From the NCBI GenBank assembly GCA_022072125.1, contig JAJVIH010000010.1:1-40710 (forward strand): DNA of 40,710 bases, in the 5' to 3' direction. How positions within the stretch are numbered: position 1 is the first letter of the stretch; every line of letters begins with the position of its first letter. Below the pieces are notes generated by a model that had not been told where the DNA came from, did not search any database, and worked only from the letters and a program-made list of their open reading frames with translations. The position numbers were made by a program, and so were the translations under genes. This DNA is from Myxococcota bacterium (GTDB taxonomy: Bacteria > Myxococcota > JAJVIH01). Positions 6,307 through 29,030 of the stretch are shown piece by piece.

Positions 6307-8916
6307 ATGACCAGCGCGGACAAACTAACCCCCATGATGAAGCAATACCGGGACGCCAAGGCGCGCACGCCCGGCTGCCTGCTGTTTTTCCGCATGGGCG
6401 ATTTTTACGAACTGTTTGAAGAAGACGCGGTGACGGCCGCCCGCGAACTGGACCTCACCCTGACCAGCAGGGACAAGGGGGAAAACGGCATGCCCATGGC
6501 GGGCGTTCCCCACCATAGCGTGCATGGCTATCTCCAGCGGCTGCTGGAAAAGGGCTACAAGGTGGCCCTGTGCGATCAACTCGAAGACCCGCGCCAGGCC
6601 AAGGGGGTTGTGCAGCGCGGCGTCACCCGCATCATTACCCCCGGGGTGAATCTGGAGCCCGACTCACGCGAGACCCGCGAGCCCCAGTATCTGGCGGCCG
6701 TGGTGCTGGGTAAAACGCCCGCGGTGGCGGTGCTGGATGTCCAGTCAGGCGATTGCGCGGCGGGAGAAATGGGCGATTCCGGGGTGGTGCGCGACGAACT
6801 GCTGCGGCTGGCCGTGCGTGAGGTGCTGGCGGCGCCCGGTGATATGGACGCCCTGCGGAGCATGATGTCCGGCGCGGAAGGCGTTTGCCTGACCCCTCTG
6901 CGCGAGTTTGACCTGGACGCCGGACGGGGCCGGCGCTCCCTGCTGCGGGCGCTTGGCGCCTCCACCCTGGAAGCCTGGGGCATGGATGGTTACTCCAGCG
7001 GTCTGGCGGCGATTGACGGCCTGTTCGAGTACATCCGCCTGACCCAGCAGAAAGAGGTCCGGCAAATCACCCGGCTGCGGCGCATGGAGCAGCGCGATCA
7101 CCTGGTGCTCGACGACAACACCCTGCGCAACCTGGATATCCTCCGCAACAACCAGACGGGACGCCGCCAGGGCTCTCTGTTGGGGGTGGTTGATCAGTGC
7201 CGCACCTCCATGGGTGGACGTTTGCTGGCCCAATGGCTCGCTTTTCCGCTCAATGAACTGAAGGCCATCCACGAGCGGCAGTCCGCGGTGGCTGAACTGG
7301 TGTCCAACGACAGCCTGCGCGACGGACTGGATCAGGCGCTGACGGGCATGGGCGATTTGCACCGGGTGATTTCGCGGATATCCATGGGGCTGGCCAATCC
7401 GCGCGATCTGCTGGCGCTGGGGCGCGGCCTGGATCGCATTCCCGCCATATCTGCGCTGGCCGCGGGTGCGATGTCGCGCCTGCTAGCGGGCATGAACCTG
7501 CGTATCCAGGATTTCCCGGAGATGCGCGGAGAGTTGGCGGCGGCCCTGTCGCCGGAAGCTCCGCTGGCGCTGACCGAGGGCGGAATTTTCAACCGCGGCT
7601 GGAACACGGAACTGGATGAACTCATCAGCCTGTCGATCAGCAGCAAGGACGCCCTGGCGGCCATCGAAGCGCGGGAGCGGGAACGCACCGGCATCGCATC
7701 CCTGAAGGTCCGCTACAACCGGGTGTTTGGCTACTATATTGAAATTTCATCGGCCAACCTGTCGCGCGCGCCGGCCGATTACATCCGCAAACAGACCCTG
7801 ACCAACGCCGAGCGCTTCATCACGCCGGAACTCAAGGATTTCGAGGACAAGGTGCTGTCCGCCGAGGAACGCCGCATGTCCCTGGAATACCGGCTGTTCA
7901 CGGAGTTGCGCGACCGGGTCGCCATGCATTCCCGGGCGCTGCAACTAACAGCGGACGCCCTCGCCGAACTGGACGCCCTGGTGTCGCTGGCCGCGGCCGC
8001 CCGTAAATACGACTGGCGCCGCCCGGAGGTGGACGAATCCGGCGTACTGGAAATCCACGAAGGCCGGCACCCGGTCATTGAAGCCATGATGAAGGGGGAG
8101 CGTTTTGTCCCCAACGACGTGGTGCTGGATGTCAACGACCGGCAGATTCTTCTGGTCACGGGTCCCAACATGGCGGGCAAGAGCACCGTGATGAGGCAGG
8201 CGGCGCTAATCGCCGTGCTGGCCCACGTGGGATCGTTCGTTCCCGCCGCCATGGCGCGGGTGGGACTTTGCGACCGGGTGTTCACCCGGGTCGGCGCCAG
8301 CGACAATCTGGTGCGCGGACGCTCCACATTCATGACCGAGATGATCGAAACGGCCAGCATCCTGCTCAACGCCACGCGCAAGAGCCTGGTCATTCTCGAC
8401 GAGATCGGGCGCGGCACCAGCACCTTCGACGGACTGTCCATCGCCTGGGCGGTGGCGGAATACTTGCATGATCGCGTGGGCTGCCGCACGCTCTTCGCCA
8501 CCCATTACCACGAACTGACCGAACTCTGTGAGTCCCGCGAGCGCATGTTCGCCTGCACCATCGCGGTGCGCGAGGTGGATGACGACATTGTATTCCTGCG
8601 CAAGGTGGTTCCCGGCGGCTCCAACCGCAGCTATGGCATCCATGTGGCGCGGCTGGCGGGCGTGCCCCCCCAGGTGACCAGCCGGGCAAGGGAAATCCTG
8701 GGTGAACTGGAGACCGGGGAATACAACGCCGGCGGCCGCCCGCGGCTGGAGTCGCCGGCCGACCCGCCCGGTCCCGCGGCGCAACTGTCGCTGTTTGTCC
8801 CCGTGCCGATCCACAGCAGCATCGAGGAGGAATTGCGCGCGCTTGATCTCGACAGCCTGACGCCGATGGAGGCGCTCAACATCCTGTCCCGCTGGCGGAA
8901 GAAGCTGGGCAAATGA
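6307..8916 (+). CDS. mutS: DNA mismatch repair protein MutS
   Basis: 869 residues, the normal length for bacterial MutS. MutS dimers scan DNA, bind mismatches and small loops, and recruit MutL with ATP. The mismatch-reading Phe-x-Glu motif is FYE at residues 33-35 in the N-terminal domain. The connector, lever and clamp regions follow. The ABC-type ATPase begins near residue 560, with Walker A GPNMAGKST at 619-627, Walker B and signature DEIGRGTSTFDG, and ATHYHEL. The C-terminal short segment EEELRALDLDSLTPMEALNIL is the typical MutL/dimer-tetramer tail. It is transcribed divergently from the PHP gene across 119 bases. No good ribosome site precedes the ATG, and a weak GATAAA at 6293-6298 lies 8 bases upstream. 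No mutL is nearby. Confidence 0.98.
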   Translation: MTSADKLTPMMKQYRDAKARTPGCLLFFRMGDFYELFEEDAVTAARELDLTLTSRDKGENGMPMAGVPHHSVHGYLQRLLEKGYKVALCDQLEDPRQAKGVVQRGVTRIITPGVNLEPDSRETREPQYLAAVVLGKTPAVAVLDVQSGDCAAGEMGDSGVVRDELLRLAVREVLAAPGDMDALRSMMSGAEGVCLTPLREFDLDAGRGRRSLLRALGASTLEAWGMDGYSSGLAAIDGLFEYIRLTQQKEVRQITRLRRMEQRDHLVLDDNTLRNLDILRNNQTGRRQGSLLGVVDQCRTSMGGRLLAQWLAFPLNELKAIHERQSAVAELVSNDSLRDGLDQALTGMGDLHRVISRISMGLANPRDLLALGRGLDRIPAISALAAGAMSRLLAGMNLRIQDFPEMRGELAAALSPEAPLALTEGGIFNRGWNTELDELISLSISSKDALAAIEARERERTGIASLKVRYNRVFGYYIEISSANLSRAPADYIRKQTLTNAERFITPELKDFEDKVLSAEERRMSLEYRLFTELRDRVAMHSRALQLTADALAELDALVSLAAAARKYDWRRPEVDESGVLEIHEGRHPVIEAMMKGERFVPNDVVLDVNDRQILLVTGPNMAGKSTVMRQAALIAVLAHVGSFVPAAMARVGLCDRVFTRVGASDNLVRGRSTFMTEMIETASILLNATRKSLVILDEIGRGTSTFDGLSIAWAVAEYLHDRVGCRTLFATHYHELTELCESRERMFACTIAVREVDDDIVFLRKVVPGGSNRSYGIHVARLAGVPPQVTSRAREILGELETGEYNAGGRPRLESPADPPGPAAQLSLFVPVPIHSSIEEELRALDLDSLTPMEALNILSRWRKKLGK

Positions 8917-8991
8917 GACGGAAACCGGCGGCGGACCTCGCCGGGCGGCGGCGTTCATTCCATATGAAAAGGGATATCCGTCCGGACGCCG

Positions 8992-10752
8992 TTACCTGCG
9001 CCGTCCCAGCCACAGATAAAAGGCGTTGAGGGTCCTCAGAAACACCACCGAGAACGTGGAATAGAGCAGCGCCTTGGGGGCGCGCAGCCATTTCGTGGGT
9101 ATCCAGGAGGGACGGAACCAGCGGATTCCCGCCAGCACAGCCAGCACCGCGCAGGCGATGACGAAACCGCGCACCTGCCATTCCGTGATGCGCCATCCGC
9201 CCGCGCTGCTGATCCACAGCAAGGACAGCACGGAGACAAAGGCCGCCAGCTTCATCAAATCACGGAACCATTTGCGCACGGGAGGCAGCACCAGAATCGC
9301 GGTTTTGCCAAACTGCCTGGTGGCCGCGTACAGCACTTGCATGCGGCGCAGGAAGTTGTTGGGCTGCTGCAGGGCGGGCAGCATCCAGATGAAGCGCCAC
9401 AGTTTGGGATAGGTGCTTTCGGGCGCCATGCCGTTGCGGGCCACCTTGACCAGCGAACCCTCCGGATCCAGGCGCGTCACCGCGATCTGGTAGCCGCTGG
9501 TCATGATGGCGTCCGCTTCCATGTCGTTGAAGGCGTCGAGGTCGGTGCGGATTTCCGAGATCATCTTCTGGGCGCTGCGCGCGATGCCATAATCGGTCAG
9601 TTGTTCCGACGACGCCTCGATGGCGCCCACGCTGTCAATATCTCCCGCCAGATCATCCTTCATGTGGACGACCACTCCGGGGCGGTCAGGCGGACGGCGC
9701 AACAACTGGCCCATGTTCAGATCGCGCACCCGCTCCATCAGGATGGAAGTGCTGCGCCCGAACACCCCGATGTTGTACTTCGACGGCGCGTTCTCCAGTT
9801 GAAGCTGTCCGGAGCCGTCGCTGACCAGCGAACAAATACAGTCCACGTCGTCGAGGATATGGTTGCCCCAGTTGTTGAAGATGCCGCCGTCCACCAGGTA
9901 GGCCGTCCAGCCCGGATTGAACTCATTGAGGATGACGGGTGGAAACAGCCCCGGCACGCAGGCGGAAGCCGCCACCGCCAGCCCCAGCGGAAAATTCTGG
10001 TAGCGCGGATCCTTTGCTTCCTTGTAGCGCAGCACATGAATTTCGCGCCGGGAATGCGACGCCTGACCCGCGGCGCTCTGGCGATCCTGGGTTTCCCCCA
10101 TCCAGGTGGAGGTGAACACCCACGGGCTGCCGCTGTTGAGCGTGGTGGCGTTGATGAAGATCGCAGGCGCCTTGTTGCGCCGCCCGGCATTGTGGATTTT
10201 GGGGTGGAAGCCCTCTGGCGCGCCCTTCGGATGGATCACCAGATCGCACATATGGGCTTCCTTGCCATTCAGCAGGGGCGCGAAGAAAAACTCGTTGTAC
10301 ACCTCGCCAAACCGGTCCGAGAGGTTGTAGCCGGGGGGCTGGTTGACCGCCTTCTTCAGGTTGAAATTGATGAAGACCTCCAGCCGGACATTGCGCTGCA
10401 CCGCCTCCAGAAAGCCGATCTGCACGTTGTCCACCAGCCGCAGGTAATCGTCGCGGGTGATTTCTTCATCCAGCTTGGACTCCAGCAGCTTCTTGAGATG
10501 GATGTAGTAATAGGCCCCCAGGATGGACCCGCCGGAAACCGTGGAGATCACCTCCACGTGGCGCAGCAAATCCAGTTCAGCCAGCCGCGCCAGCACGCCA
10601 ATATGAAAAAACGCCGCGCGGAAACCGCCGCCTGAAAACGCCAGCCCGAAACGCGGCTGGTGCAGCCCCAGGGCGTTCGCCGGCGCCGGAGCCTGGGTGG
10701 GCGGCAACACCACCGCGGCCGGACTTTCAAGTTTGAATATGGTTGAGGTCAT
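8992..10752 (-). CDS. Membrane-anchored patatin-like phospholipase
   Basis: 586 residues. The patatin lipid acyl hydrolase fold is shown by the oxyanion motif SGGGFR (41-45), the nucleophile in STVSGGS (Ser73; a Thr replaces the first Gly of the usual GxSxG, as in some bacterial patatins) and the catalytic Asp in VDGGIFN (Asp288). This gives a Ser-Asp dyad that would cleave acyl esters of phospholipids. Unlike the compact patatins, it has a ~90-residue C-terminal tail with two or three hydrophobic segments (around LAAFVSVLSLLWI and GFVIACAVLAVLAG), so it is probably anchored to the inner membrane with the catalytic domain in the cytoplasm, since there is no signal peptide. The start at 10752 is preferred over 10800 from the protein alignment pattern. 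It is divergent from the FadL-like gene. Confidence 0.85.
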   Translation of the reverse strand: MTSTIFKLESPAAVVLPPTQAPAPANALGLHQPRFGLAFSGGGFRAAFFHIGVLARLAELDLLRHVEVISTVSGGSILGAYYYIHLKKLLESKLDEEITRDDYLRLVDNVQIGFLEAVQRNVRLEVFINFNLKKAVNQPPGYNLSDRFGEVYNEFFFAPLLNGKEAHMCDLVIHPKGAPEGFHPKIHNAGRRNKAPAIFINATTLNSGSPWVFTSTWMGETQDRQSAAGQASHSRREIHVLRYKEAKDPRYQNFPLGLAVAASACVPGLFPPVILNEFNPGWTAYLVDGGIFNNWGNHILDDVDCICSLVSDGSGQLQLENAPSKYNIGVFGRSTSILMERVRDLNMGQLLRRPPDRPGVVVHMKDDLAGDIDSVGAIEASSEQLTDYGIARSAQKMISEIRTDLDAFNDMEADAIMTSGYQIAVTRLDPEGSLVKVARNGMAPESTYPKLWRFIWMLPALQQPNNFLRRMQVLYAATRQFGKTAILVLPPVRKWFRDLMKLAAFVSVLSLLWISSAGGWRITEWQVRGFVIACAVLAVLAGIRWFRPSWIPTKWLRAPKALLYSTFSVVFLRTLNAFYLWLGRRR

Positions 10753-13360: not shown

Positions 13361-13843
13361 ATGGAACGGCTGGCAGACACAAACCGCGGACTCATTCCGG
13401 ACAAATGGCGGCCTGTGCTGGTGGTTCTGGCCGCGGCCATCGTTCTGTTTGGCGGCGGCGAACTGAATCGCTGGAAACAGCAGCGGGAAATGGACCGGAT
13501 TGCTCCCGGCGTTTCAACGGTGGGCGACGCCGGATGGGCCTCCGGAGCGCTGCACGAGGAGGAAATCCTGGTGCTGTCCGCATACGCCCCGTGGTGCAAG
13601 CCCTGCCACGGCGCCCTGGCGATCACGGAATCCATGGCGAAGCAGTGGCCCCAGGTCCGCTTTGTCAAATTCAATGTGGACGAAGCGGAGACCCTCCGCG
13701 CGGCCCTGAACGTCAAGAGCATTCCAACCACATTCGTGCTGAAAAAAGGGCGTGTGGCGGCGGCGATTGATCCGCTGGATGAAGCCGCTTTCCACGCCAT
13801 CCTGAAGAAGACGGCCCACGCGCCGCCCAGGCCGGAAAGCTGA
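13361..13843 (+). CDS. Membrane-anchored thioredoxin-like protein
   Basis: 160 residues. There is one N-terminal membrane segment (about 17-33, VLVVLAAAIVLFGGG), then a thioredoxin fold facing the periplasm. The active site is WCKPC (78-82) with the cis-proline at residue 122 (SIPTTF). It would reduce or exchange disulfides in exported proteins; many lipoproteins in this window are Cys-rich and are possible clients, which is inference. WCKPC rather than WCGPC is within the family range. An AAGG about 7 bases upstream supports the ATG at 13361. It follows the lipoprotein gene after 126 bases and converges with the deacetylase gene. Confidence 0.85.
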   Translation: MERLADTNRGLIPDKWRPVLVVLAAAIVLFGGGELNRWKQQREMDRIAPGVSTVGDAGWASGALHEEEILVLSAYAPWCKPCHGALAITESMAKQWPQVRFVKFNVDEAETLRAALNVKSIPTTFVLKKGRVAAAIDPLDEAAFHAILKKTAHAPPRPES

Positions 13844-13917
13844 AGGCCGCTCCGGCCGCCCGCATTCATTGCATTCCGCCAGCAGGCAATATGCATCCGC
13901 GGCGGCGCCCGCGGTGT

Positions 13918-15105
13918 TCATTCTCCCGCGTTTTGCTTTACCCAGCGGGCGATTCCGGCGAGGGGGGAAATCCATACATCCGCGCGGCGGGACAGGCGGC
14001 GGAGAAATTCCTCGTAGGCTTCAAGCCAGCGCGGATCGCCGGACAGATGGGGTTCTGGATGGTTGGTCAATACGGCCAGCCCGCCGCGCGCGGCAATCCG
14101 CTCCATCAATTCCTCCCAAAACGCCATGGCTTGCGCCGCGCCGGAACCGCGCAGGCGCAGGGTGTCGTCCAATGGCAGGCTCGGAGGCAATTCCAGCACC
14201 CCTTCGCGCCGCCAAAAGGGAAATACCGTTCCACAGCCGCGAACCGGCGCCGCGACCCCGCCCCGATCGGAAGACGGCGTGCTGGAATCGTATTCAAAAC
14301 GTCCGGCCAGGGCGGCGAACAGGGCCCCGGTCGTCAACAACGAAGGCGCGCGAAAACCCCGGATTTCCAGCCGGCCGATGACTGGACCCAGTTCGTCCAG
14401 CGCGGCGCCGATCGTGTCCGGCGTTTCAAACGGAGTTCCGTGGCCATGATCGGCCCCGTGCAGGCCAATCTCCGCTCCCCAATCGCGCAGGGAGCGCGCG
14501 CCCCCGTCATCCTCCCGCAGATGACGGCCAACCATGAAACAGGTGGATCGCATGCCCAGCCGCGCCTCCGCCCGGACCATGCGCAGGGCGGCGGAATAGG
14601 ATTGCGGCGTGTCCAGATCGTGGGTCAGCGCCAGCACCCAGCGCTTGCCTTCCGGCCAGGCCAGGCGCGCCAACCGATCCTCCCCGGCGAGCGACAAAAG
14701 ATGGCGGAGCGCATCCATGGCGCCGTCCAACGGCCAGCGCGGAAATTCATCCGCGCTCCATTGGCGGTTCGCCAGCATGCGGCGCGCGGCGAAGCGCAAG
14801 CGCCCGGGGATTTGCTGGTAGAGATCGCCCATCCGCCAATGCGGGGGCCGCCGGGGCTGGATGCGATCTTCATGGAGCAACGCCGCCGCCGCCTGTTGCA
14901 GGTCCGGGTGCGCCGTCCATCCGCCATCATCACCCCTGCGCAGCAGGGCCACGCGGCCGCCCCCTGGCGCCAGCAATTCCGCACGCGCCGTACCGGGCGC
15001 ACGCCATTGCGGCAGTTGGAGATCGGGCAAGAACAACCCGTCCCCGCACCAGGCGGGCCTGACGGCGTCATCCAGGCGCAACAGCGCGTGCGGAGCGCCG
15101 GTCAT
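13918..15105 (-). CDS. NodB-type polysaccharide deacetylase-like protein
   Basis: 395 residues. The catalytic half has the polysaccharide deacetylase motifs: LTHDLD with the Asp pair at 163/165, the metal histidines in LHGADH (216 and 220) and RAPS near 252. These enzymes remove N- or O-acetyl groups from sugar polymers or glycolipids. The first ~150 residues are an extra region (FLPDLQLPQW, DLYQQIPGRLRFAARRM) that I do not recognise. There is no signal peptide, so it may act on a lipid-linked intermediate in the cytoplasm. It lies 3 bases after the GT2 stop, the third gene of a carbamoyltransferase-GT2-deacetylase unit, which suggests a role in decorating a glycan or glycolipid. Confidence 0.82.
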   Translation of the reverse strand: MTGAPHALLRLDDAVRPAWCGDGLFLPDLQLPQWRAPGTARAELLAPGGGRVALLRRGDDGGWTAHPDLQQAAAALLHEDRIQPRRPPHWRMGDLYQQIPGRLRFAARRMLANRQWSADEFPRWPLDGAMDALRHLLSLAGEDRLARLAWPEGKRWVLALTHDLDTPQSYSAALRMVRAEARLGMRSTCFMVGRHLREDDGGARSLRDWGAEIGLHGADHGHGTPFETPDTIGAALDELGPVIGRLEIRGFRAPSLLTTGALFAALAGRFEYDSSTPSSDRGGVAAPVRGCGTVFPFWRREGVLELPPSLPLDDTLRLRGSGAAQAMAFWEELMERIAARGGLAVLTNHPEPHLSGDPRWLEAYEEFLRRLSRRADVWISPLAGIARWVKQNAGE

Positions 15106-15108
15106 GGC

Positions 15109-15798
15109 TCAATGGGGCTCGCGCCACAGGCGCGCCATTTCGATGATGGTTTTGACAATGGTCTTCGGATGGGCGCCCTTGGCCTTGCCGCTGCGCCGCG
15201 GATGGTAGGCCGAATCAATCTCGACGATGCGCCGCCCCTTGCGCCGGGCCCGCACCAGCACCTCTTCGAGGAAGAACACGCCTTCCGATTTCGGGGATAT
15301 CTGGCCGAAAATCTCGCGCCGCCACAGATGGACCCAGTTCACGTCCCGGAAATTCTGATCGAACAGGCGGTTGCACAGAAAGATAAACGTCCGCGAGGAG
15401 GCCAGACGGAACGCCGAATAATCCTCGCGGGACATGCGGGCGCCAATGACAATGTCGGCATCGCGGGCGGCGTTGACATACGCGCCGATCTCGCTCAGTT
15501 CGAACTGGCCGTCCGCCGGAACGTACATCACCAGTTCCATGCGCGCGGCGGCGGCGCCGGTGCGAATCGCCATGCCGGAGCCGCGGTTGCGCTCGTGGTG
15601 AACCACGCGGATGCGCGCATCCATTTTCGCCAGACCATCGGCGATGGCGCCCGTGCCGTCGCTGCTGCCGTCGTTGACGATGATGATTTCAAACTCCGGA
15701 GCCGCGCGCTCCGCCGCCTCCACGGTCTCGCGCACAATGTCCCGCAGCCCCTGCTCCTCGTTATAGGCCGGAATGACGATGCTCAGGCCGCCGCTCAC
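15109..15798 (-). CDS. GT2 family glycosyltransferase (DPM1-like)
   Basis: 229 residues. The GT-A nucleotide-sugar fold begins SIVIPAYNEE (about 6-15), then IIIVNDGSSDGT. The acceptor/metal region reads VPADGQFEL, similar to dolichol-phosphate-mannose synthase-like enzymes, and there is a WVHLWRREIF segment later. Without the C-terminal membrane helices found in many relatives, it is probably peripheral to the membrane. The start codon is GTG at 15796-15798 and overlaps the TGA of the carbamoyltransferase gene (GTGA), so it is translationally coupled. Sugar donor and acceptor cannot be told from sequence. It is placed between a carbamoyltransferase and a deacetylase. Confidence 0.9.
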   Translation of the reverse strand: MSGGLSIVIPAYNEEQGLRDIVRETVEAAERAAPEFEIIIVNDGSSDGTGAIADGLAKMDARIRVVHHERNRGSGMAIRTGAAAARMELVMYVPADGQFELSEIGAYVNAARDADIVIGARMSREDYSAFRLASSRTFIFLCNRLFDQNFRDVNWVHLWRREIFGQISPKSEGVFFLEEVLVRARRKGRRIVEIDSAYHPRRSGKAKGAHPKTIVKTIIEMARLWREPH

Positions 15799-17504
15799 GC
15801 CGCCTTCTCCAGCACGAAATCCTCCAGCACCAGCACGTCAATGCCCGTGGTGAAGAAACATTCCAGCGCCTCGCGGGGGGAGAGAACCATGGGCTGCCCC
15901 TGCACGTTGAAGGATGTGTTGACCAGCAGCGGAACGCCGGTCAGGCGGTGAAACGCGGAGATAAGCGCGTGGTAACGCGGCGAGGCCTCGCGCGAAACAG
16001 TCTGGATGCGCGCGGTGCCGTCCACATGGGTGATGGCGGGAACCCGCGCCCGCCATTCCGGCCGGACTGGATGCGCGCGCAGCATGAACGGGGAGTCGCC
16101 GCGGAAATCAAAGACCTCGCGGGCGTGCTCCGCCAGCACCGAGGGGGCGAAGGGGCGGAAGGATTCGCGGTGTTTGACCCGGCTGTTGAGGCGGTCCTTC
16201 ATGCCGCCGCCGCGCGGATCGGCGAGGATGCTGCGCTGCCCCAGCGCGCGCGGACCATATTCGGCGCGGCCCTGCGACCATCCCACGATGGCCCCGGCGG
16301 TGATCCGCTCCGCGACCATTTCCTCCAGGTTGGCGGGACGGCTGTGGCGCGCTCCCGCCGCGCGCAACAGGGATTCAATCTCGCCGTTGCTCCAGGATGG
16401 CCCCAGCGCATCCGTCCGCATGGGCGCGCCGCGCGGCAGGCCATGCATCGCGTGCTGGGTCCATAGCGCCGCGCCTAGGGCGGAGCCGCTGTCGCCCGCC
16501 GCCGGCTGTACGAAAATCCGGTCCATTCCCAGGGCGTCCGCCGCCTTGCCATTGGCGACGCAATTCAGCGCCACCCCGCCGGCGAGGCACAGGGCATCCT
16601 CGCCCGTCCGCTGGCGCAGCGAGCGGATCAGGTGGATCAGGGTTTCCTCCAGCACAAGCTGGACGCTGGCCGCCACCGCGCGATGGCGATCATTCAAGGG
16701 CTCTCCCGGCTGGCGCGGCGGCCCCAGCGCCTGTTCAAACAGCGGGCTGTAGCGGACGGGCCGTTCGAGCCCAAAGTGGAATGGCGTGGGATCCACGGCG
16801 AATCCGCCGTCTTCCAGCGGTTTCACCCACGAGCGGAAGACGTGAATGAACTCCGGCTCGCCGTAGGGCGCCAAACCCATCACCTTGCCTTCGTCGCAGT
16901 TGGGTTTGAAACCCAGGTATTGCGTCACCGCCGCGTACACGGCGCCCAGCGAATGGGGAAATTCCACCTGCCCGGAAATCTCAATCTTCGCGCCGCGCCC
17001 GCGCGCCATCACCGCGCTGGCCCGTTCGCCATACCCATCCACCGTCAGAATCGCCGCGCTGTCATATGGAGAGGGATAAAACGCCGCCGCCAGGTGGCAG
17101 TGATGGTGAGTCAGGTACTCGATACGCAGCGGACGTTTGGCGCCCTCAAAGCGGATTTCCTGCGCCATGCCTTCGACCTGCCTGCCGCCTGCTTCACCCG
17201 GCCAGGCGCGGATCATCCACCACGGCAGGGTGGTCAGAAATTCGCTGTGGTGACGCCAATTGCCGGCCCGGTGGGCCTGGAAGGCCTGCATGTGAATGCC
17301 GGGATTCCAGAAAAAGGCGGCCTGATCCACGTCCGCGAGGGTCGCGCCGGCGGCCCGCAGGCAGTAGTCCATGGCCTGCGCGGGAAAGGCGCTGGAATGC
17401 TTCACCCGGTCAAAGCGCTCTTCAATGGCGGCCGCCAGAATCACGCCGTCACGCACAATGGCCGCTCCGGAATCAATGGAGTGATTCAGGCCCAGGGTCA
17501 GCAT
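15795..17504 (-). CDS. NodU/TobZ-type carbamoyltransferase
   Basis: 569 residues, full length for this family. It transfers carbamoyl from carbamoyl phosphate to a hydroxyl of a sugar or natural product. The N-terminal Kae1-like ATPase domain reads [38 protein letters not shown] and LTVDGYGE. The C-terminal YrdC-like domain contains [16 protein letters not shown] and LVNTSFN. It is the first of a three-gene unit: its stop overlaps the GTG of the GT2 gene. It begins 51 bases after lon on the same strand, with no terminator visible between them, so some read-through from clpX-lon is possible. The substrate is probably a lipid-linked or secreted saccharide, judging from its partners. Confidence 0.92.
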
Positions 17505-17555
17505 GAAGAAAGCTTATCCGCCGCCGCGCCTGAAGTCGAATCTCCCGCCGCCGGC

Positions 17556-19985
17556 TCAGTTCCGGGTGGAAGAAGAAGGCTGGAAGCCGGTGACGCGGGC
17601 GCCGCGCTGGCGATCCAGGTGCTTGCGCAGTTCATCCTGACCCAGGGCGAGTTGCAGCACTTCATCCATGTGCGACACCGGAATCAACTCCATGGCGTCG
17701 CGCACGCGGCGGGGAATATCGCGCAGGTCCTTGCGGTTTTCGGCGGGAAAGATCACCCGCTTCAGGCCGGCGCGGTGGGCCGCCATGACCTTTTCCTTCA
17801 GGCCGCCGATCGGCAGCACCCGGCCCCGGAGGTTGATCTCGCCCGTCATCGCCAGGTCGGCGTGTACGGCTATTTGCGTCAGTTCCGAGATCATCGCCGT
17901 GGCCATGGTGATGCCCGCCGAGGGGCCGTCCTTGGGAATCGAACCTTCGGGCACGTGGATATGCACGTCCAGCGCCTCGTTGAAGAGATGGCTGAGACCC
18001 AGCACCTCCGCCCGCGTGCGCAGGTAGGACAGGGCCGCCTGGGCCGACTCCTGCATGACATTGCCGACCTGGCCGGTCACCGTCAGACGCCCATGCCCCG
18101 GCATGGCGGAGACCTCGACCTTCATCAACGTGCCGCCCAGTTCCGTCCAGGCCAGCCCGGTGGCGATGCCGATTTCGTCGCGCGGGGCCCTTTCCTGGCG
18201 CTGGTAGCGGGGCGCTCCCAGCATGCGAACCACGCCGCGGCGGGTGATGCGGGCGTTGGGCTCCAGTTTTTTCTTGAGTTGCTCAATCGCCAGCTTCCGG
18301 CAGATGGACGCGATTTCGCGGTCCAGCCCGCGCACCCCGGCCTCCAGGGTATAGCGGTGGATGATGAACTGAATGGCCTCGCGCGAGAATCGCGGCGCCG
18401 CATCGGCGAGCCCCGTGGCCTCGAACTGCTTGGGGATCAGGTAGCGCAGGGCGATGGCTTCCTTCTCCAGATCGGTGTAGCCGGACAGACGGATGATCTC
18501 CAAGCGGTCGCGCAAGGGCGCCGGTATTTCATGGATATTGTTCGCGGTGGTGATGAACAGGCATTCGGAGACGTTATAGTCCAGATCGAGGAAGTGATCG
18601 ACGAAGTTCTTGTTCTGCTCCGGATCGAGCACCTCCAGCAGGGCGCTGGCCGGATCCCCCCGGAAATCCGTGCTCATCTTGTCAATTTCGTCGAGCAGGA
18701 AGACCGGATTGTTCGACCCCGCCTTGCGCAGGGACTGGATGATCTTCCCCGGCATGGCGCCGATATAGGTGCGGCGGTGGCCGCGGATTTCCGCCTCGTC
18801 GCGCACGCCGCCCAGGGAGACCCGCACGAATTTCCGCCCCGTCGCGCTGGCGATGCTTCGCGCCAGCGAGGTTTTTCCCACTCCCGGCGGCCCCGCCAGA
18901 CAGAGAATGGGTCCGTCGCCGGCGCGCCGCGTCAGCTTTTCCACCGCCAGGTATTCGATGATGCGCTCCTTGACCTTGCGCAACCCGAAATGCTCGCGGT
19001 TCAACAGCTTCTCCGCTTCCTCGATATTGACCTTGTCCTCGGTCTTTTCATTCCAGGGCAGGCTGATCACCCAGTCTATATAATTGCGGACCACCGTGGC
19101 CTCGGCGCTCATCGGGCTCATCATCTTGAGCTTGCGAAGCTCGCGCCGGCATTTCTCCCGCGCCTCGCCGGAGATGGGCCTCGATTCGATCTTCTCCTCC
19201 AGTTCCGCCAGTTCGCTGCGGAACTCGTCGCGTTCACCCAGCTCCTTCTGGATGGCAGCCATCTGCTCGTTGAGGTAATACTCCTTCTGCGAACGCTCCA
19301 TCTGCTTTTTCACGCGCGAGCGGATGCGTCCCTCAAGCTGCAGGATTTCGATCTCCTGCTGCATCAGTTCGTAGACCTTTTCCAGGCGGCGCCGGGCGTC
19401 GGGCTCTTCGAGCAGCGCCTGTTTGTCTTCGATGCGGGCGTTCAGGTTGGCGGCCAGGAAATCGGAATAGGCGGAGACGGAACTGGAAGACGCCGTGATG
19501 GCGTTGACCGCTTCATTGCTGAGCCGCTTGTTGAGCGATGCATATTCGGAAAAGGATTTCGCCGTGCTGGCGATCAGCGCATGGGTCTCGAGATCGTCGG
19601 GGGCGATCTCGGCGATCTCCTCGACATCCGCCTCGAAGCAGGGCCCGCGGGCGTGGATGCGGGCGGCGCGCGCGCGGTGCAGCCCTTCCACCAGGATTTT
19701 CCGCGTGCCATCCGGCATGGGGCTGTTCTGCAGCAGCCGGGCGACGGCTCCCGCATGGTGCAGATCGGACGGTTCCGGATCATCCACCTTGGCGCTCTTC
19801 TGGGTGACCACCAGCACCAGATTGCCGTGTTTGACCGCCTGTTCGAGCGCGGCCACGGAACGGGCGCGGCCCACGTAGAGCGTCGCCGCCATGGCGGGAA
19901 AGAGCACCACGTCGCGCAGGGGCAGCACAGGCAAACGCGCCGGGCTGCGTTTTCCACCGGGTCCAGCGCTGGATACGGCGTTCAT
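17556..19985 (-). CDS. lon: ATP-dependent protease Lon
   Basis: 809 residues, typical for bacterial LonA. The order is an N-terminal substrate domain ([15 protein letters not shown]), a coiled-coil segment (about 180-300), the AAA+ module with Walker A GPPGVGKT and Walker B FLLDEIDK, and the Ser-Lys protease domain: PKDGPSAG with Ser689 and GGLKEK with Lys730. It degrades misfolded and regulatory proteins in the cytoplasm. It starts 14 bases after the clpX stop, so the two AAA+ proteases are cotranscribed, as in many proteobacteria. The C-terminal ~20 residues are variable and low in conservation. Confidence 0.98.
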
Positions 19986-19999
19986 GGCTCAGGTCGCCG

Positions 20000-21250
20000 T
20001 CAGGCGGAATCGGCCTGTTCCTGGTACACGAGCAGGGGCTCCTGCCCGCGCAGGATGACCTCATCGTTGATGATGGTCTCGCGGATATCCGGATTGCTGG
20101 GCACGTCGTACATGACGTTGAGCATGGCGTTTTCAATGATGGCCCGCAGGCCGCGCGCCCCCGTCCGCCGCTTGATGGCCTCCTTCGCGATGGCCTCCAG
20201 CGCCTTTTCCGTGAAGGTCAGGGTGACGCCTTCCATCTGCAGCAGCTTCTTGTACTGGCGCACCAAGGCGTTCCTGGGTTTGGTCAGGATATCAACCAGC
20301 GCCTTTTCATCGAGTTCATCCAGCGTGGCGACCACCGGCAGGCGTCCGATAAATTCCGGAATCAGGCCGAATTTCATGAGGTCCTCTGGTTGCACATTCC
20401 TGAGGATTTCCGTGCGGCGGGGGTCGGTCTTTTTCACCACCTCGGCTCCGAAGCCCAGGGTTTTCTTGCTCATGCGATCGCCGATGATGCGATCCAGCCC
20501 CTCGAACGAACCGCCGCAGATGAACAGGATATTGCTCGTGTCCACCTGCAGGAACTCCTGCTGGGGATGTTTGCGGCCCCCCTTGGGCGGCACGTTGGCG
20601 CGCGTGCCCTCGATGATCTTGAGCAGGGCCTGCTGCACGCCCTCGCCCGACACGTCGCGGGTGATGGACGGGTTGTCGCCCTTGCGCGCGATCTTGTCGA
20701 TTTCGTCAATGTACACAATGCCGCGCTGCGCCCGTTCGATATCGTGATCGGCGGCGTTGAGCAGGCTGACAATGATGTTCTCGACATCCTCGCCCACGTA
20801 GCCGGCCTCGGTCAGGCTGGTGGCGTCGGCGATGGTGAAGGGAACATTCAGCAAGCGGGCCAGGGTGCGCGCCAGCAAGGTCTTGCCGCTGCCGGTCGGC
20901 CCTATCAGCAGGATATTGCTCTTCTGGATTTCCGTGTCGTCGGCGCCGAAGCGGTGTTCGATGCGCTTGTAGTGGTTATGCACCGCCACGGAAAGCACCT
21001 TCTTGGCGTACTCTTGGCCGATGACATATTCGTCGAGCACGCGCTTGATGTCCGCGGGACGCGGAATCGAGCTTTGCGGCCTGCGATCCAGGGTTCGCTC
21101 GGTCTCTTCGGCGATGATGTCATTGCACAAGCCAATGCACTCATCGCAAATGTAGACCGTCGGCCCGGCGATGAGCTTCTTCACTTCCTTTTGGCTCTTG
21201 TGACAGAACGAGCAGCGGAGGGTCGAGGTTTCGTCGAATTTGCGATCCAT
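20000..21250 (-). CDS. clpX: ClpX, ATPase subunit of ClpXP protease
   Basis: 416 residues. The N-terminal zinc-binding domain has Cys 13, 16, 35 and 38 (LRCSFC and ICDEC). The AAA+ domain has Walker A GPTGSGKT, the pore loop region GYVGED and the Walker B IDEIDK. ClpX unfolds tagged substrates and feeds them to ClpP. Usually tig and clpP precede it; here a small unknown gene lies upstream and no clpP is in the window. A near-consensus promoter at 21292-21320 points to transcription of clpX-lon as its own unit, with a weak GGAAG ribosome site before the ATG. Confidence 0.98.
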
Positions 21251-21577
21251 GGTGCTTCCGCGCGGAACAGCCCGCCAAATCCTGAATGCGGATTATAGGT
21301 TCGGCTCCACCCCCCTGCAAGTCACCGGAACTCGTCTATTTTACCGCAACCACATGCGCAGTGCGCCTTGAACCGCTCCCGCCCGGAAATCCTGGCGGGG
21401 AGGCCATGACCGGTCCGCCCGCACCCCTTCAGAACGCCGGTTGGCCGGATTGTTTTTCCGGCGTTTCCGGACGGAAAAACACCGGCGATATCATCCGCGC
21501 TCCCGCAACCAAGCCGGGAACGGCGGAGTTTCCGGTTGGCGCCGGCTCCAGCGGCCGCGCGGCGGAGAACCTGCCGC
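21251..21577. other. 327-base gene-free stretch between clpX and a small unknown gene
   Basis: It holds the clpX promoter at one end. In the middle are two interlocking perfect dyads: an 8-base pair (21433-21440 with 21458-21465) and a 9-base pair (21452-21460 with 21472-21480). They cannot form at the same time. Short open frames here show no protein-like features. Confidence 0.6.
21292..21320 (-). promoter_or_regulatory. Sigma70-type promoter for clpX-lon
   Basis: On the minus strand TTGCAG, 17 bases, TATAAT. The -10 is a perfect consensus and the spacing is ideal. Transcription would begin around 21285, giving a leader of about 35 bases before the clpX ATG. No heat-shock (sigma32) pattern is evident at this site. 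Confidence 0.75.
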
Positions 21578-21925
21578 TTACGCCGTCTTTTTGCTCAGGG
21601 AGGCGGTGATGACCCAGCGGCCCTCGTGGCCTTCTTCCTGCCAGGTTCCAATCAGGGCGATGCGATTCTTCCACGCATACAATTCCAGCGAGCAGGGATG
21701 TTTTTCGCCGGGGAAGCCCTTGTATTCGTATTCGCCAGAGAAGGAATTGTCCGTTCCCCCCCGCAGATGGGCGACCAAATCGGTTTCGTCATCCACGGAG
21801 AAATCGAAGGCGACCTCCGATACTTCCTTCGCGCCTTCCTTGCCGCGCAGGAATACGACCACGTCGTATTGTTCATCATCGTCCAGAATGGTTCCTTCGT
21901 AGCGCCCGTGCTGCAGTTCAATCAT
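21578..21925 (-). CDS. Small acidic beta-rich protein of unknown function
   Basis: About 115 residues, rich in Asp, Glu and Gly, with alternating strands (YDVVVFLRG, VAFDFSVDDE, SLELYAWKNRIALIGTW, RWVITASLSK). No signal peptide or membrane segment, so it is probably cytoplasmic. The strand pattern resembles a small beta-barrel or sandwich, but I do not recognise the family. The start at 21925 (MIELQHGRYEG) is supported by AGG about 5 bases upstream; the longer frame to 21964 adds a non-conserved-looking leader. It lies between leucine dehydrogenase and clpX on the same strand. Confidence 0.65.
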   Translation of the reverse strand: MIELQHGRYEGTILDDDEQYDVVVFLRGKEGAKEVSEVAFDFSVDDETDLVAHLRGGTDNSFSGEYEYKGFPGEKHPCSLELYAWKNRIALIGTWQEEGHEGRWVITASLSKKTA

Positions 21926-23366: not shown

Positions 23367-24452
23367 TTACTGCACGTCCACGCAGCAGCGGAACCCAATC
23401 AACGGACGGGCAGGCGGGTTCTGATTCGGGCTGAAGGAGTTGCACATCAGCGCCTCCTTTTTCGTCGAGTTGTAGGCGCCGCCGATGAATCCGATGTCGG
23501 AAGCCGAGGCCCCCTTGACCAGTTCGGTCACGTTTCCACTCAGGTCAAACACCCCATCCGGGTTCTTGCAGTTGGGAGAACTGCCGGTGGGCTTGGGAAC
23601 ATTCGACACGCCATTGCAGGCGGTTTCGTCGTAGTCCTTGCCATAGGGATAGGGACGATCCTTGTCGGAAATTCCCTGGGCGCCGTCGCAGGCGTCGCGC
23701 CATTCGTTGAGGGTGCAGAGCCGCTTTTTGGCGGCCGCGCACGCGGCTTCGGCGTCTTTCAGCACCACCTCGGTCCACGGCAGAACATTGGGAACGCTCT
23801 GCGCGCCCTGGGCGGGGTTGCCCTTGCCGGGATCCTTGTCGGTGGCGCCGGGGCGTGAAGCCTCGTATTTATCAATGCAGGTGAAACAGTTCATACCCGC
23901 CATGCCGGGAGGGCATTTGTCGGTGCGGGCGCCCTCGTCGGTTTCGCCGTTGCAGTCGTTGTCCAGACCATCGCAGATTTCCACGCCGCCATTGGTCTTC
24001 TTGCAGCCGGGATCCACGTCGGCCGCTCCGGCGTCGGTTGCGCCCGTGTCGCCTCCTCCGCCGCCCTTGTCATCCGGCTGCGCGGCGTCGGAGCCCGTTG
24101 CGCCGCCAGCATCCGGCTCGCCGGCGTCAGTGGGCGTGACGGAAGAAGATTCCCCCGGTCCCTTCGCGCTGGGATCAATCACCGCGCCGCCGGTGGTGGC
24201 GAACTCCACTTCATCCTGGGCGACGCATTTGCCCGCCGCGATATCACATTTTCCCGACCGGCATTCGGAGTGGCTGTTGCATTCCTTGGCGGCCACGCAG
24301 GTTCCATTTCCCGTGGGGTCCTGACAGACCTGCCCGGCGCCGCACTCGGCGTCGCTGACGCATCCGCCCTTGGCGCAACCCGCCGCACCGAGTGAAAGCA
24401 TCGCCAGCGCCGCCACACCCAGCCAGCGCCAATCCAGTTTGTTCAGCAGCAT
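23367..24452 (-). CDS. Lipoprotein with MopE-like motif and FGE-sulfatase (SUMF1)-like domain
   Basis: 361 residues. The signal ends AAGC with the lipidated Cys at residue 26. Next comes a Cys-rich part (CVSDAECGAGQVC, ECRSGKCD), a spacer rich in Asp, Ala, Gly and Thr, a MopE-type putative metal-binding motif (ICDGLDNDCNGETDEG), and a C-terminal FGE-sulfatase-like domain: CIDKYEASRP, KRLCTLNEWRDAC, FDLSGNVTELV and IGFRCC. True formylglycine-generating enzymes need a Cys pair in a CGSCW-like context; I do not see it, so this is probably a structural or binding version. An excellent AAGGAG lies 6 bases before the ATG at 24452, and a promoter is at 24491-24519. A strong terminator follows, so it is monocistronic. 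Confidence 0.85.
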   Translation of the reverse strand: MLLNKLDWRWLGVAALAMLSLGAAGCAKGGCVSDAECGAGQVCQDPTGNGTCVAAKECNSHSECRSGKCDIAAGKCVAQDEVEFATTGGAVIDPSAKGPGESSSVTPTDAGEPDAGGATGSDAAQPDDKGGGGGDTGATDAGAADVDPGCKKTNGGVEICDGLDNDCNGETDEGARTDKCPPGMAGMNCFTCIDKYEASRPGATDKDPGKGNPAQGAQSVPNVLPWTEVVLKDAEAACAAAKKRLCTLNEWRDACDGAQGISDKDRPYPYGKDYDETACNGVSNVPKPTGSSPNCKNPDGVFDLSGNVTELVKGASASDIGFIGGAYNSTKKEALMCNSFSPNQNPPARPLIGFRCCVDVQ

Positions 24453-24490
24453 TCGCTTCTCCTTGCCGCACCCTGTCGCGGCGAAGCTAC

Positions 24491-24519
24491 CATATAGGTC
24501 CCCCGCACGCACCGGTCAA
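24491..24519 (-). promoter_or_regulatory. Sigma70-type promoter for the FGE-like lipoprotein gene
   Basis: On the minus strand TTGACC, 17 bases, TATATG. Transcription would start near 24484, about 30 bases before the ATG, which carries a strong ribosome site. Confidence 0.65.
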
Positions 24520-26068: not shown

Positions 26069-27127
26069 ATGTCCAGCAACGTCATCAGTCCCGGCGCGAC
26101 CCTTCTGGTGACCGGCGCCGCCGGGTTCATCGGCTCCAATTTTGTCCGCATGCTGCATGAACGCGGCGAGGATCGCATTGTCGCCCTCGACAAGCTGACC
26201 TACGCCGGCAACCTGGAGAATCTGGAAGGCCTGGACGGAAGCAGCCGCTACACCTTTGTGCGCATGGATATTTGCGACGCCGATGGCGTTGCGGCGCTGA
26301 TCCGGGAACACCGGATTGACGCCATCGTTCACTTCGCGGCGGAAAGCCACGTGGACCGTTCCATCCTTGGCGCCGCGGAATTTATCCGCACCAATGTCGA
26401 GGGAACGCGCATCCTGCTGGATATCGCCCGCGGCCAAGGGGTGCGGCGCTTCCTGCAGGTGTCCACCGACGAGGTATACGGCTCGCTGCCGGAAGATCGC
26501 CCGGAAGTGAAATTCACCGAACAGACTCCGCTGCAGCCCAACAGTCCCTATTCGGCTTCCAAGGCCTCCGCCGACCTGCTGGTGCGGGCGTGGAATCATA
26601 CCTATGGCCTGGACACGGTGATCACCCGCTGCTCGAACAACTACGGCCCGTACCAGTTCCCCGAAAAACTCATCCCGCTCATGATCGCCAACGCGCTGGA
26701 AGACAAACCATTGCCGGTATATGGCGACGGCCAGCAGCGCCGCGACTGGATTCATGTCCGCGATCACTGCCGCGCCATTGATCTGGCTCTGCGCCGGGGG
26801 CGTTCCGGCGAAGTCTACAATGTGGGCGGCGACAACGAATTGCCCAACCTGACGGTGATCGAGGACATCCTGTCCATCCTGGGCAAACCAAGGACCCTGA
26901 TCCGTTACGTCGAGGATCGCAAAGGCCACGACCGGCGCTATTCCATTGACGGATCGTTCATCGCCGCGGAGCTGGGGTACCGTCCCCAGGTGGAATGGAA
27001 AACCGGTCTGCGGGAGACCATCCAGTGGTATGTGAACAACCGGGGCTGGTGGGAGCGGATACGTTCGGGCGCGTACCGCGATTATTATGAAAAACAATAC
27101 GCCGGGCGGCTGTCCGGCGGACAGTGA
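26069..27127 (+). CDS. rfbB: dTDP-glucose 4,6-dehydratase
   Basis: 352 residues, full length. It converts dTDP-glucose to dTDP-4-keto-6-deoxyglucose with a bound NAD. The extended SDR fold shows VTGAAGFIGSN near the N terminus, HFAAESHVDRS, STDEVYGS with the catalytic Asp-Glu pair, and YSASKAS with Tyr and Lys of the YxxxK motif. RCSNNYGPYQFPEKLIP and the C-terminal GHDRRY are specific to RmlB-type dehydratases. It is the first gene of a five-gene operon and has no clear ribosome site. Its product and that of the next gene provide an activated 6-deoxy sugar for surface polysaccharide. Confidence 0.95.
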   Translation: MSSNVISPGATLLVTGAAGFIGSNFVRMLHERGEDRIVALDKLTYAGNLENLEGLDGSSRYTFVRMDICDADGVAALIREHRIDAIVHFAAESHVDRSILGAAEFIRTNVEGTRILLDIARGQGVRRFLQVSTDEVYGSLPEDRPEVKFTEQTPLQPNSPYSASKASADLLVRAWNHTYGLDTVITRCSNNYGPYQFPEKLIPLMIANALEDKPLPVYGDGQQRRDWIHVRDHCRAIDLALRRGRSGEVYNVGGDNELPNLTVIEDILSILGKPRTLIRYVEDRKGHDRRYSIDGSFIAAELGYRPQVEWKTGLRETIQWYVNNRGWWERIRSGAYRDYYEKQYAGRLSGGQ

Positions 27128-27133
27128 GGAACC

Positions 27134-27880
27134 ATGAAAGGCGTCAAGGGCATTGTGCTCGCGGGCGGAACCGGCAGCAGGCTGTTTCCCCTGACCAAGG
27201 TGACCAACAAACACCTGCTTCCGGTCGGCCAGAAGCCGATGATCTTCTATCCCATCGAGGCGCTGACCCGCGCCGGGATTGATGAAATCCTGATCGTCAC
27301 CGGAACCGAGCATATGGGCGACGTGGTCGGCCTGCTGGGCAGCGGCAGGGAATACGGCTGCCGTTTCACCTACAAGGTGCAGGACGAAGCAGGCGGCATC
27401 GCGCAGGCGCTGGGCCTGGCGGAGGTATTCGTCGGAAACGACCGCTGCGTGGTCATTCTGGGCGACAATATCTTTCAGGACGACATCGGCCCATACGTGG
27501 AAGAATACATGAAGCAGCCGGAGGGCGCGGCCATCCTGCTCAAGGAGGTCAAGGACCCCCACCGCTTCGGCGTGGCCGAAGTGTCGGGCGGACGGGTGCT
27601 GTCCATCGAGGAAAAACCGAAGCAGCCCAAGTCCAGCCTGGCGGTGATCGGCGTGTACATGTACGACGCGCGGGTGTTCGGCGTCATCCGCGAACTGCGG
27701 CCCAGCGCACGCGGCGAACTGGAGATCACCGATGTCAACAACGCCTATCTGAAGGAGGGACGCTTGACCTCCAGCGTGTTGCGGGGGTACTGGACCGATG
27801 CGGGCACCTTTGATTCGCTCCGCCAGGCCAACGAACTGGTGACGGCGAATCCGCCCGGAGGAAAACCGTCCCATGTCTGA
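27134..27880 (+). CDS. rfbA: Glucose-1-phosphate thymidylyltransferase (short form)
   Basis: 248 residues. It makes dTDP-glucose from dTTP and glucose 1-phosphate. The nucleotidyltransferase signature is at the N terminus (GIVLAGGTGSRLFPLT), followed by NKHLLPVGQKPMI, VVILGDNIF and IEEKPKQPKSS. The length matches the ~240-residue type seen in archaea and many bacteria rather than the ~290-residue enterobacterial RmlA. Its ATG follows the rfbB stop by 6 bases and has GAGG upstream. It overlaps the next gene by 8 bases. Confidence 0.92.
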   Translation: MKGVKGIVLAGGTGSRLFPLTKVTNKHLLPVGQKPMIFYPIEALTRAGIDEILIVTGTEHMGDVVGLLGSGREYGCRFTYKVQDEAGGIAQALGLAEVFVGNDRCVVILGDNIFQDDIGPYVEEYMKQPEGAAILLKEVKDPHRFGVAEVSGGRVLSIEEKPKQPKSSLAVIGVYMYDARVFGVIRELRPSARGELEITDVNNAYLKEGRLTSSVLRGYWTDAGTFDSLRQANELVTANPPGGKPSHV

Positions 27881-29020: not shown

Positions 29021-29030
29021 TCGGAGCATC

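Follow-up and report, generated by a model that had tools for sequence, protein, structure and literature searches.

A carbamoyltransferase, glycosyltransferase and CE4-type deacetylase gene trio common to two phyla: a candidate pathway for a carbamoylated amino sugar

In the aminoarabinose modification of lipid A, the step of ArnC is followed by that of ArnD. NaxD deacylates a lipid-linked N-acyl sugar (galactosamine) in lipid A modification (PMC10927774). The combination of a carbamoyltransferase (CT), a glycosyltransferase and a deacetylase is already known from Pseudomonas, where an LPS-core locus holds wapO, wapH, PA5003 and PA5002 in a row, encoding a CT, a glycosyltransferase, a GNAT protein and a PIG-L deacetylase (PMC8005017); WapO is thought to carbamoylate a hydroxyl group of heptose in the LPS core. 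The CT family is large and mostly uncharacterized; in one studied member, the O-carbamoyltransferase GdmN, the H27N and Y82F substitutions abolished activity (PMC9633730). StdF, a NodU-like CT reported in a preprint to carbamoylate a lysine amine, provides a precedent for N-carbamoylation in the superfamily, although its substrate is a peptide and it carries a fused peptidase (PMC13174530).

The 40,710-nt stretch of DNA analyzed here (the window) encodes a CT, a glycosyltransferase (GT2) and a CE4-type deacetylase (DA) on the same strand (Table 1). The initial annotation had described these three genes as coupled, first through a GTGA overlap and then across a gap of 3 bases, and direct re-reading confirmed both junctions to the base, the GT2 stop codon TGA being followed by GCC and the ATG of DA. 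A consensus scan of the gap between lon and CT detected no promoter- or terminator-like site, so clpX, lon and the trio could, as judged from the sequence, form a single transcript. Since the GC3 of the trio (0.76–0.82) is similar to that of the neighboring genes, base composition gives no sign of its recent acquisition.

Table 1. Coordinates of the trio, its key residues and the glycan genes of the window, with the fourth gene of a Vicinamibacteria locus
Feature	Position	Strand	Remarks
CT	15795-17504	-	569 aa, ATG start; Kae1-like N domain (5-347), YrdC-like C domain (398-567)
CT residue I10 codon	17475-17477	-	alignment column of GdmN H27, the general base
CT residue F65 codon	17310-17312	-	alignment column of GdmN Y82, an essential residue
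CT stop/GT2 start overlap, GTGA	15795-15798	-	4 shared bases, read directly
GT2	15109-15798	-	229 aa, GTG start; no predicted membrane helix; motif YVPADGQF
DA, CE4-type	13918-15105	-	395 aa, ATG start; H162-D163-x-D165, H216xxxH220, R252, H349
DA N-terminal region, residues ~1-150	14656-15105	-	FPxWPxD motif, common to a wider CE4 subfamily
lon-CT gap	17505-17555	-	51 bases; lon at 17556-19985, same strand as CT
dTDP-glucose dehydratase	26069-27127	+	window glycan gene
RmlA-like	27134-27880	+	window glycan gene
RmlC-like	27873-28388	+	window glycan gene
Wza-like Poly_export	28385-29020	+	window glycan gene
TviC/GalE-like epimerase	29031-29987	+	window glycan gene
ACD1 fourth gene	L148:4757-5599		PP-loop ATPase

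Two sister MAGs from the Vicinamibacteria, which belong to another phylum, carry the three genes in identical order: L087 (JAMQGV010000022.1) and L088 (WYBL01000072.1), whose trio loci are labelled ACD1 and ACD2 (L087 and L148 denote the same genes). Identity between the window and Vicinamibacteria proteins is 53% for CT, 57–58% for GT2 and 37% for DA, and the GTGA overlap of CT and GT2 is also present in the Vicinamibacteria copy. The three trio CTs form one clade (support 100/99) in a tree of 45 rows, from which fragments and duplicates (names starting L157, L158, L096, L097, L148, L094, L027, L095 and L008_2) were dropped. Within its own phylum, the window GT2 scores 500 bits with itself and 167 bits with its next best relative; among 193 genomes of the ACD1 class, the trio GT2s score 489 bits and the next match 171 bits.

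No trios were found beyond the window genome and the two MAGs; the CT-based genome scan gave nine loci and may miss distant trios, because it uses six exact 8-residue patterns. A genome scan with DA as a single query gave no match, and none of the 12 records from a plasmid search with DA covers more than 80% of the query. No paper on this CT–GT2–CE4 set was present among the literature matches listed. The trio is known from one genome and two near-identical MAGs, so its conservation amounts to two independent contexts.

The genes might alternatively be unrelated neighbors: a close relative of DA is absent from all 20 CT regions examined in the phylum (a single weak CE4 match lies 7 kb away), and among 26 DA regions a CT occurs only in those of ACD1 and ACD2. 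However, gene content, order and the CT–GT2 overlap are repeated in two phyla, and the recurrence of the same order in MAGs of another phylum argues against a chance neighborhood. As to separate occurrence of the orthologues, which the initial annotation had named as a finding that would refute a unit, CE4 and CT relatives indeed lie mostly apart, yet all three CTs of the trio clade adjoin a trio-type GT2 and DA. We regard an accidental neighborhood as very improbable and a functional unit as highly probable.

In the Vicinamibacteria MAGs, a gene for a PP-loop ATPase directly follows the trio. The window genome encodes a homologue with 49% identity on another contig, beside Wzm/Wzt-like exporter genes, and a search of 195 genomes of the phylum found this homologue in its own genome plus one weak match. 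Glycosyltransferase genes and an ABC exporter lie downstream of the trio in the ACD1 locus; between the two lineages, the Wzm/Wzt-like pairs share only 26% and 35% identity, a level within the ordinary range for ABC transporters. The PP-loop ATPase is probably part of the trio pathway. Also encoded downstream of the ACD1 trio are a radical SAM protein resembling HpnJ and an epimerase resembling HpnA. An analogy of these neighbors to the hopanoid cyclitol-ether system was rejected, the scores being 190.6 for HpnJ (cut-off 577.6) and 80.7 for HpnA (cut-off 367.65).

The GT2 protein belongs to Pfam family PF00535 (100 bits, cut-off 23.3), and its best sequence matches in the PDB are ArnC. In a Foldseek search with a predicted model, each of the best 25 matches listed was to ArnC, GtrB or dolichyl-phosphate mannose synthase; of the five predictions, a single one could be used for this search (mean pLDDT 72, the others about 45). 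With the ArnC model itself (NCBIfam NF007986) GT2 scores 75.9 bits, below the cut-off of 529, and hydropathy revealed none of the membrane helices of ArnC and GtrB. Soluble DPM1-type enzymes exist; in place of the DAD motif of DPM1-type enzymes, GT2 has PAD. By sequence and predicted fold, GT2 resembles the polyprenyl-phosphate enzymes ArnC and GtrB, and the chances that a lipid-linked sugar is an intermediate of the pathway appear evenly balanced.

DA matches PF01522 at 25.1 bits, barely above the cut-off of 23.1, while keeping the CE4 motifs DxD, HxxxH, RxP and the final His. Because the Pfam match covers residues 156–254 only, about 150 N-terminal residues go unrecognized. The initial annotation was correct about this long N-terminal region, which is real, but it is not peculiar to this gene and recurs in a CE4 subfamily. 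The predicted structure of DA is poor (mean pLDDT 47.7, below 50 in the N-terminal region), and hydropathy revealed no membrane segment. No NCBIfam family matched DA at E ≤ 0.01, hence neither an ArnD nor a NaxD model fits; the XrtA-system deacetylase model TIGR03006 (cut-off 276.2 bits) gave 26.6 bits with the ACD1 orthologue and no match with the window protein.

The earlier reading of the trio as a glycan-decorating pathway stands in that the genes form one unit of fitting enzyme classes, with the gene order in two phyla and the CT–GT2 overlap as evidence, but its Nod-factor logic does not. CT and DA do fall in the NodU and NodB superfamilies, but CT reaches 178 bits with the NodU model (NF041651, cut-off 1000), GT2 matches the NodC model weakly (19.3 bits, cut-off 550), and no acyltransferase was present among the window ORFs scanned, which makes decoration of a Nod-factor-like lipochitooligosaccharide extremely improbable. 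The ArnC–ArnD or NaxD step is the nearer analogy because of the resemblance of GT2 to ArnC and GtrB, the common feature being a polyprenyl-phosphate-type GT2 with a deacylase for a lipid-linked N-acyl sugar. Neither of these systems includes a CT, however, and they also differ from the trio in the membrane helices of the glycosyltransferase and in the deacylase models that DA does not fit.

CT is covered over its full length by PF02543 (184 bits, cut-off 24) and PF16861 (242 bits, cut-off 27), and its best solved relatives are antibiotic CTs. With TobZ, GdmN, NovN and NodU it shares both domains and the four metal ligands, H133, H137, D156 and D338 (H133, H137, D156 and D333 in GdmN). It differs from them in Ile10 and Phe65, which replace H27 and Y82 of GdmN, and in the loop before the conserved Asp, which most relatives have longer by one residue. 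CT is thus a member of the superfamily that departs from the O-carbamoyltransferase signature at the His and Tyr positions. Of 57 distinct CT matches, all but those that duplicated the window CT or were contained in it entered the alignment. The Ile/Phe pair was seen only in trio CTs. The base column holds His in 34 of 49 aligned rows (rows with gaps at both key columns dropped; 47 distinct, as L087/L148 and L051_7956/L008_2 each stand for a single gene), and in one clade the His lies one residue earlier. Since His is not universal at this column, its loss alone is no proof of N-transfer. H8 of the window CT could serve as a substitute base, though ACD2 has Tyr there. TsaD of the same genome, aligned by eye, reads GIESSCD and has no His at the base position. 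The acceptor of TsaD is an amine. Given an active CT, we consider N-carbamoylation possible, at somewhat less than even confidence.

Replacement of the very residues whose mutation kills GdmN activity might also mean that CT no longer transfers carbamoyl to a substrate, being inactive, regulatory or hydrolytic, and that the GT2–DA pair does the chemistry. Against this, CT retains the four metal ligands together with K444, R446, R450, R419, H493 and D495 of the YrdC-like domain, which are near-invariant in the family, and its 53% identity across phyla points to strong constraint. Such a loss of transfer is improbable.

We tentatively propose, at a little under even confidence, that the genes form one small pathway in which a carbamoylated amino sugar is made in the cytoplasm, with polyprenyl phosphate as its most likely carrier. 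GT2, as an enzyme of the ArnC/GtrB class, would place an N-acylated sugar on undecaprenyl phosphate, and the CE4 enzyme would then strip this sugar of its N-acyl group in the manner of ArnD and NaxD. CT would form carbamoyl-AMP and hand the carbamoyl to the sugar. Because the base for O-carbamoylation is missing, the acceptor could quite possibly be the freed amine, which would give a ureido group. The PP-loop ATPase would probably participate as a fourth protein, and the product would, after export, become part of a surface glycan or glycolipid. The narrower version, in which the trio and its PP-loop partner are dedicated to an N-carbamoylated (ureido) amino sugar carrying ureido in place of acetamido on a surface glycan, we consider unlikely. 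If N-transfer is true, loss of the His/Tyr pair coupled to a deacetylase would be a signature separating N- from O-carbamoyltransferases, and the predicted glycan modification would be traceable by mass (+43 on an amine instead of +42). Even without N-transfer, this is a rare four-gene set common to two phyla, and because in one of them the partners lie at two separate loci, reconstitution offers a test of its function.

In a more ordinary reading, the target of O-carbamoylation is a surface polysaccharide or the LPS core: GT2 would add a residue, the CE4 enzyme expose an amine and CT modify a hydroxyl, with no lipid-linked monosaccharide involved. This is rather unlikely but agrees with several observations: the clustering of CT, glycosyltransferase and deacetylase genes with a surface-glycan target in Pseudomonas, the glycosyltransferases and exporter downstream of the ACD1 trio, and the nucleotide-sugar and Wza-like genes in the window. 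The Pseudomonas cluster described in PMC8005017 nevertheless differs in having a deacetylase that is PIG-L rather than CE4, an intervening GNAT gene and carbamoyl on a heptose hydroxyl, while the replaced His and Tyr of CT and the closeness of GT2 to polyprenyl-phosphate enzymes also argue against O-transfer of this kind. A role in tailoring a small natural product for secretion, in the fashion of TobZ, NovN or GdmN, would account for the antibiotic CTs being the best solved relatives, but no scaffold gene, whether PKS, NRPS or of another kind, is among the window ORFs scanned and the trio adjoins the housekeeping genes lon and clpX, so we give this reading a low probability. The earlier remark that no acyltransferase or polymerase lies nearby held for the window ORFs scanned, a part of all ORFs; the window does contain glycan genes, though, located about 8.5 kb from the trio on the opposite strand.

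The carbamoyltransferase (CT), family-2 glycosyltransferase (GT2) and CE4-type deacetylase (DA) genes are coupled, as the initial annotation had proposed: CT ends and GT2 begins within a shared GTGA, and three bases separate GT2 from DA. All three products score above the Pfam cut-off, DA only barely (25.1 vs 23.1 bits, residues 156-254 only), and fall within their superfamilies; none of the three reaches a named NCBIfam cut-off. The lon gene lies 51 bases upstream of CT and is preceded by clpX, all on the same strand (gene names assigned by eye from translations), and a convergent thioredoxin-like gene lies downstream of the trio. Consensus scans of 13700-21700 detected no promoter-like site, nor did they place a terminator-like site in the 51-base lon-CT gap, which would allow co-transcription of clpX, lon and the trio. 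An open frame of 1371 codons on the plus strand (16632-20747), antisense to clpX, lon and CT, is very likely an artefact of GC-rich coding rather than a gene.

Features of the trio locus, a nucleotide-sugar gene cluster and the PP-loop ATPase locus of the source genome
Feature	Location	Strand	Remark
CT (carbamoyltransferase)	window 15795-17504	minus	ORF
GT2 (family-2 glycosyltransferase)	window 15109-15798	minus	ORF
DA (CE4-type deacetylase)	window 13918-15105	minus	ORF
RmlB, RmlA-like, RmlC-like, Wza-like, TviC/GalE-like epimerase genes	window 26069-29987	plus	nucleotide-sugar and export
PP-loop ATPase - Wzm-like - Wzt-like run	L164 (G000:C39:12000-31900), 7139-10547	minus	

Within the phylum of the source genome, CT relatives were found in 40 of 117 genomes, the source genome counted. 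Among 20 CT regions examined in 17 of these 40 genomes, none contained a close DA relative; searching them with a small CE4 profile yielded a single weak hit (locus L058, E 2.4e-4), about 7 kb from CT, and GT2-family matches were confined to locus L056. DA relatives occur in nine of 195 genomes of the phylum, including the source genome, the remaining eight at E 2.6e-5 or worse. A CT-based scan of GTDB species contigs, which rests on exact peptide patterns, returned nine loci, two of which carry the complete trio in identical gene order. Both belong to MAGs of the Vicinamibacteria (Acidobacteriota), ACD1 (L087) and ACD2 (L088), with identities to the window of 53% for CT, 57-58% for GT2 and 37% for DA; counting these two sister MAGs as one, the trio is known in just two contexts. 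By eye, the CT-GT2 junction of ACD1 is GTGA as in the window, and its GT2-DA junction is likewise a GTGA overlap. In the phylum of ACD1, DA matches were detected in 31 of 396 genomes; among 26 fetched regions around them, several ending early at contig ends, those of ACD1 and ACD2 alone contained a CT or the trio GT2. Across 193 genomes of the ACD1 class, the GT2s of ACD1 and ACD2 score 489 bits and the next at most 171, which sets the trio GT2 well apart from other GT2s. In the CT tree, a single clade with long stems (support 100/99) unites the window CT with those of ACD1 and ACD2 and excludes the remaining CTs of the source genome and its phylum. The association is thus an old one rather than a recent copy, and base composition gives no sign of a recent import of the trio. 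Three more carbamoyltransferases are encoded in the source genome (G000:C1, C19 and C32), outside the trio clade.

The window CT aligns over its full length with antibiotic CTs and retains the near-invariant residues of the family's YrdC-like domain. At positions corresponding to the iron ligands of the O-carbamoyltransferase GdmN, H133, H137, D156 and D333 (PMC9633730), it carries H133, H137, D156 and D338. GdmN needs H27 as its general base and loses its activity in the H27N and Y82F variants (PMC9633730); the window CT has I10 and F65 at these positions, and ACD1 and ACD2 have the same pair. Among 49 aligned CT rows, 34 have His in the base column, one clade has it shifted one place earlier, and the Ile/Phe pair is confined to the trio CTs (four rows, three genes). 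The window CT lacks the O-carbamoyltransferase signature. A hydroxyl acceptor needs more assistance from a base than an amine acceptor, and TsaD of the source genome, whose acceptor is an amine, is also without His at the base position (alignment by eye). Carbamoylation of a lysine amine by a NodU-like enzyme is reported in a 2026 preprint (PMC13174530). Taken together, the lost base His, the amine chemistry, TsaD, the NodU-like precedent and a deacetylase in the same operon make it an attractive but unproven reading that CT may N-carbamoylate the amine uncovered by DA. Carbamoyltransferase genes are paired close together at three loci, L051 (G059:C3), L064 (G017:C119) and L065 (G013:C23); in L051 and L065, one CT of each pair has F or Y at the base column and its partner has His.

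DA retains the CE4 motifs H-D-x-D, H-x-x-x-H, R-x-P and the final His, which have catalytic roles in CE4 enzymes. Its long N-terminal region, initially considered unrecognised, indeed lies outside Pfam's description but is not peculiar to this protein: in an alignment of DA with 14 relatives, the stretch before the CE4 domain is partly shared, and since an FDPxxxxxNLxxERY-like block and an FPxWPxD motif recur in most rows, the region is a CE4 subfamily feature absent from Pfam. In large-genome relatives from the source phylum (L074, L075 and L084), another GT2 gene has another CE4 deacetylase gene immediately after it, with no carbamoyltransferase found beside these pairs; in L074, an amine-oxidase-like gene stands in front (by eye).

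The top PDB sequence matches of GT2 are ArnC enzymes, and the first 25 Foldseek matches of its model (the best of five, with a mean pLDDT of 72 against ~45 for the others) are ArnC, GtrB or dolichyl-phosphate mannose synthase. Hydropathy revealed no membrane helix in GT2, and the alignment places PAD at the position of DAD, the usual motif of this class. Sequence and model suggest, with moderate confidence, a soluble-type polyprenyl-phosphate sugar synthase. By analogy, the trio may work like the ArnC-ArnD pathway or the NaxD step (for the role of NaxD, see PMC10927774), with a carbamoyl transfer added. The closest published gene set found is wapO-wapH-PA5003-PA5002 of the Pseudomonas LPS core, which includes a PIG-L deacetylase (PMC8005017), not one of the CE4 type.

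A PP-loop ATPase gene directly follows DA in ACD1 and ACD2. Its homologue in the source genome (G000:C39:21728-22462, 49% identity) adjoins Wzm-like and Wzt-like ABC exporter genes, so that the four genes form one run in ACD1 and ACD2 and two loci in the source genome. Across 195 genomes of the source phylum, the protein was found in the source genome and as one weak partial match; its best PDB match is an 'asparagine synthetase domain-containing protein' (9kq6). A TsaD gene lies near this PP-loop run on the same strand. Downstream of these four genes, ACD1 also encodes an ABC exporter pair together with a flippase-like membrane protein, an epimerase and proteins of the radical SAM and PMT_2 types, a set suggestive of a surface glycan. 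The exporter pairs of ACD1 and the source genome are only 26% and 35% identical and are therefore not called orthologues. Seven PMT_2-type proteins of the source genome score above the cut-off, none of them linked to the trio, and could transfer a lipid-linked sugar. Elsewhere on the minus strand, the window encodes an FGE-sulfatase domain protein with a weak MopE-type metal-binding motif match (23367-24512) and a 766-aa protein with an IgGFc_binding domain (PF17517; 1873-4173).
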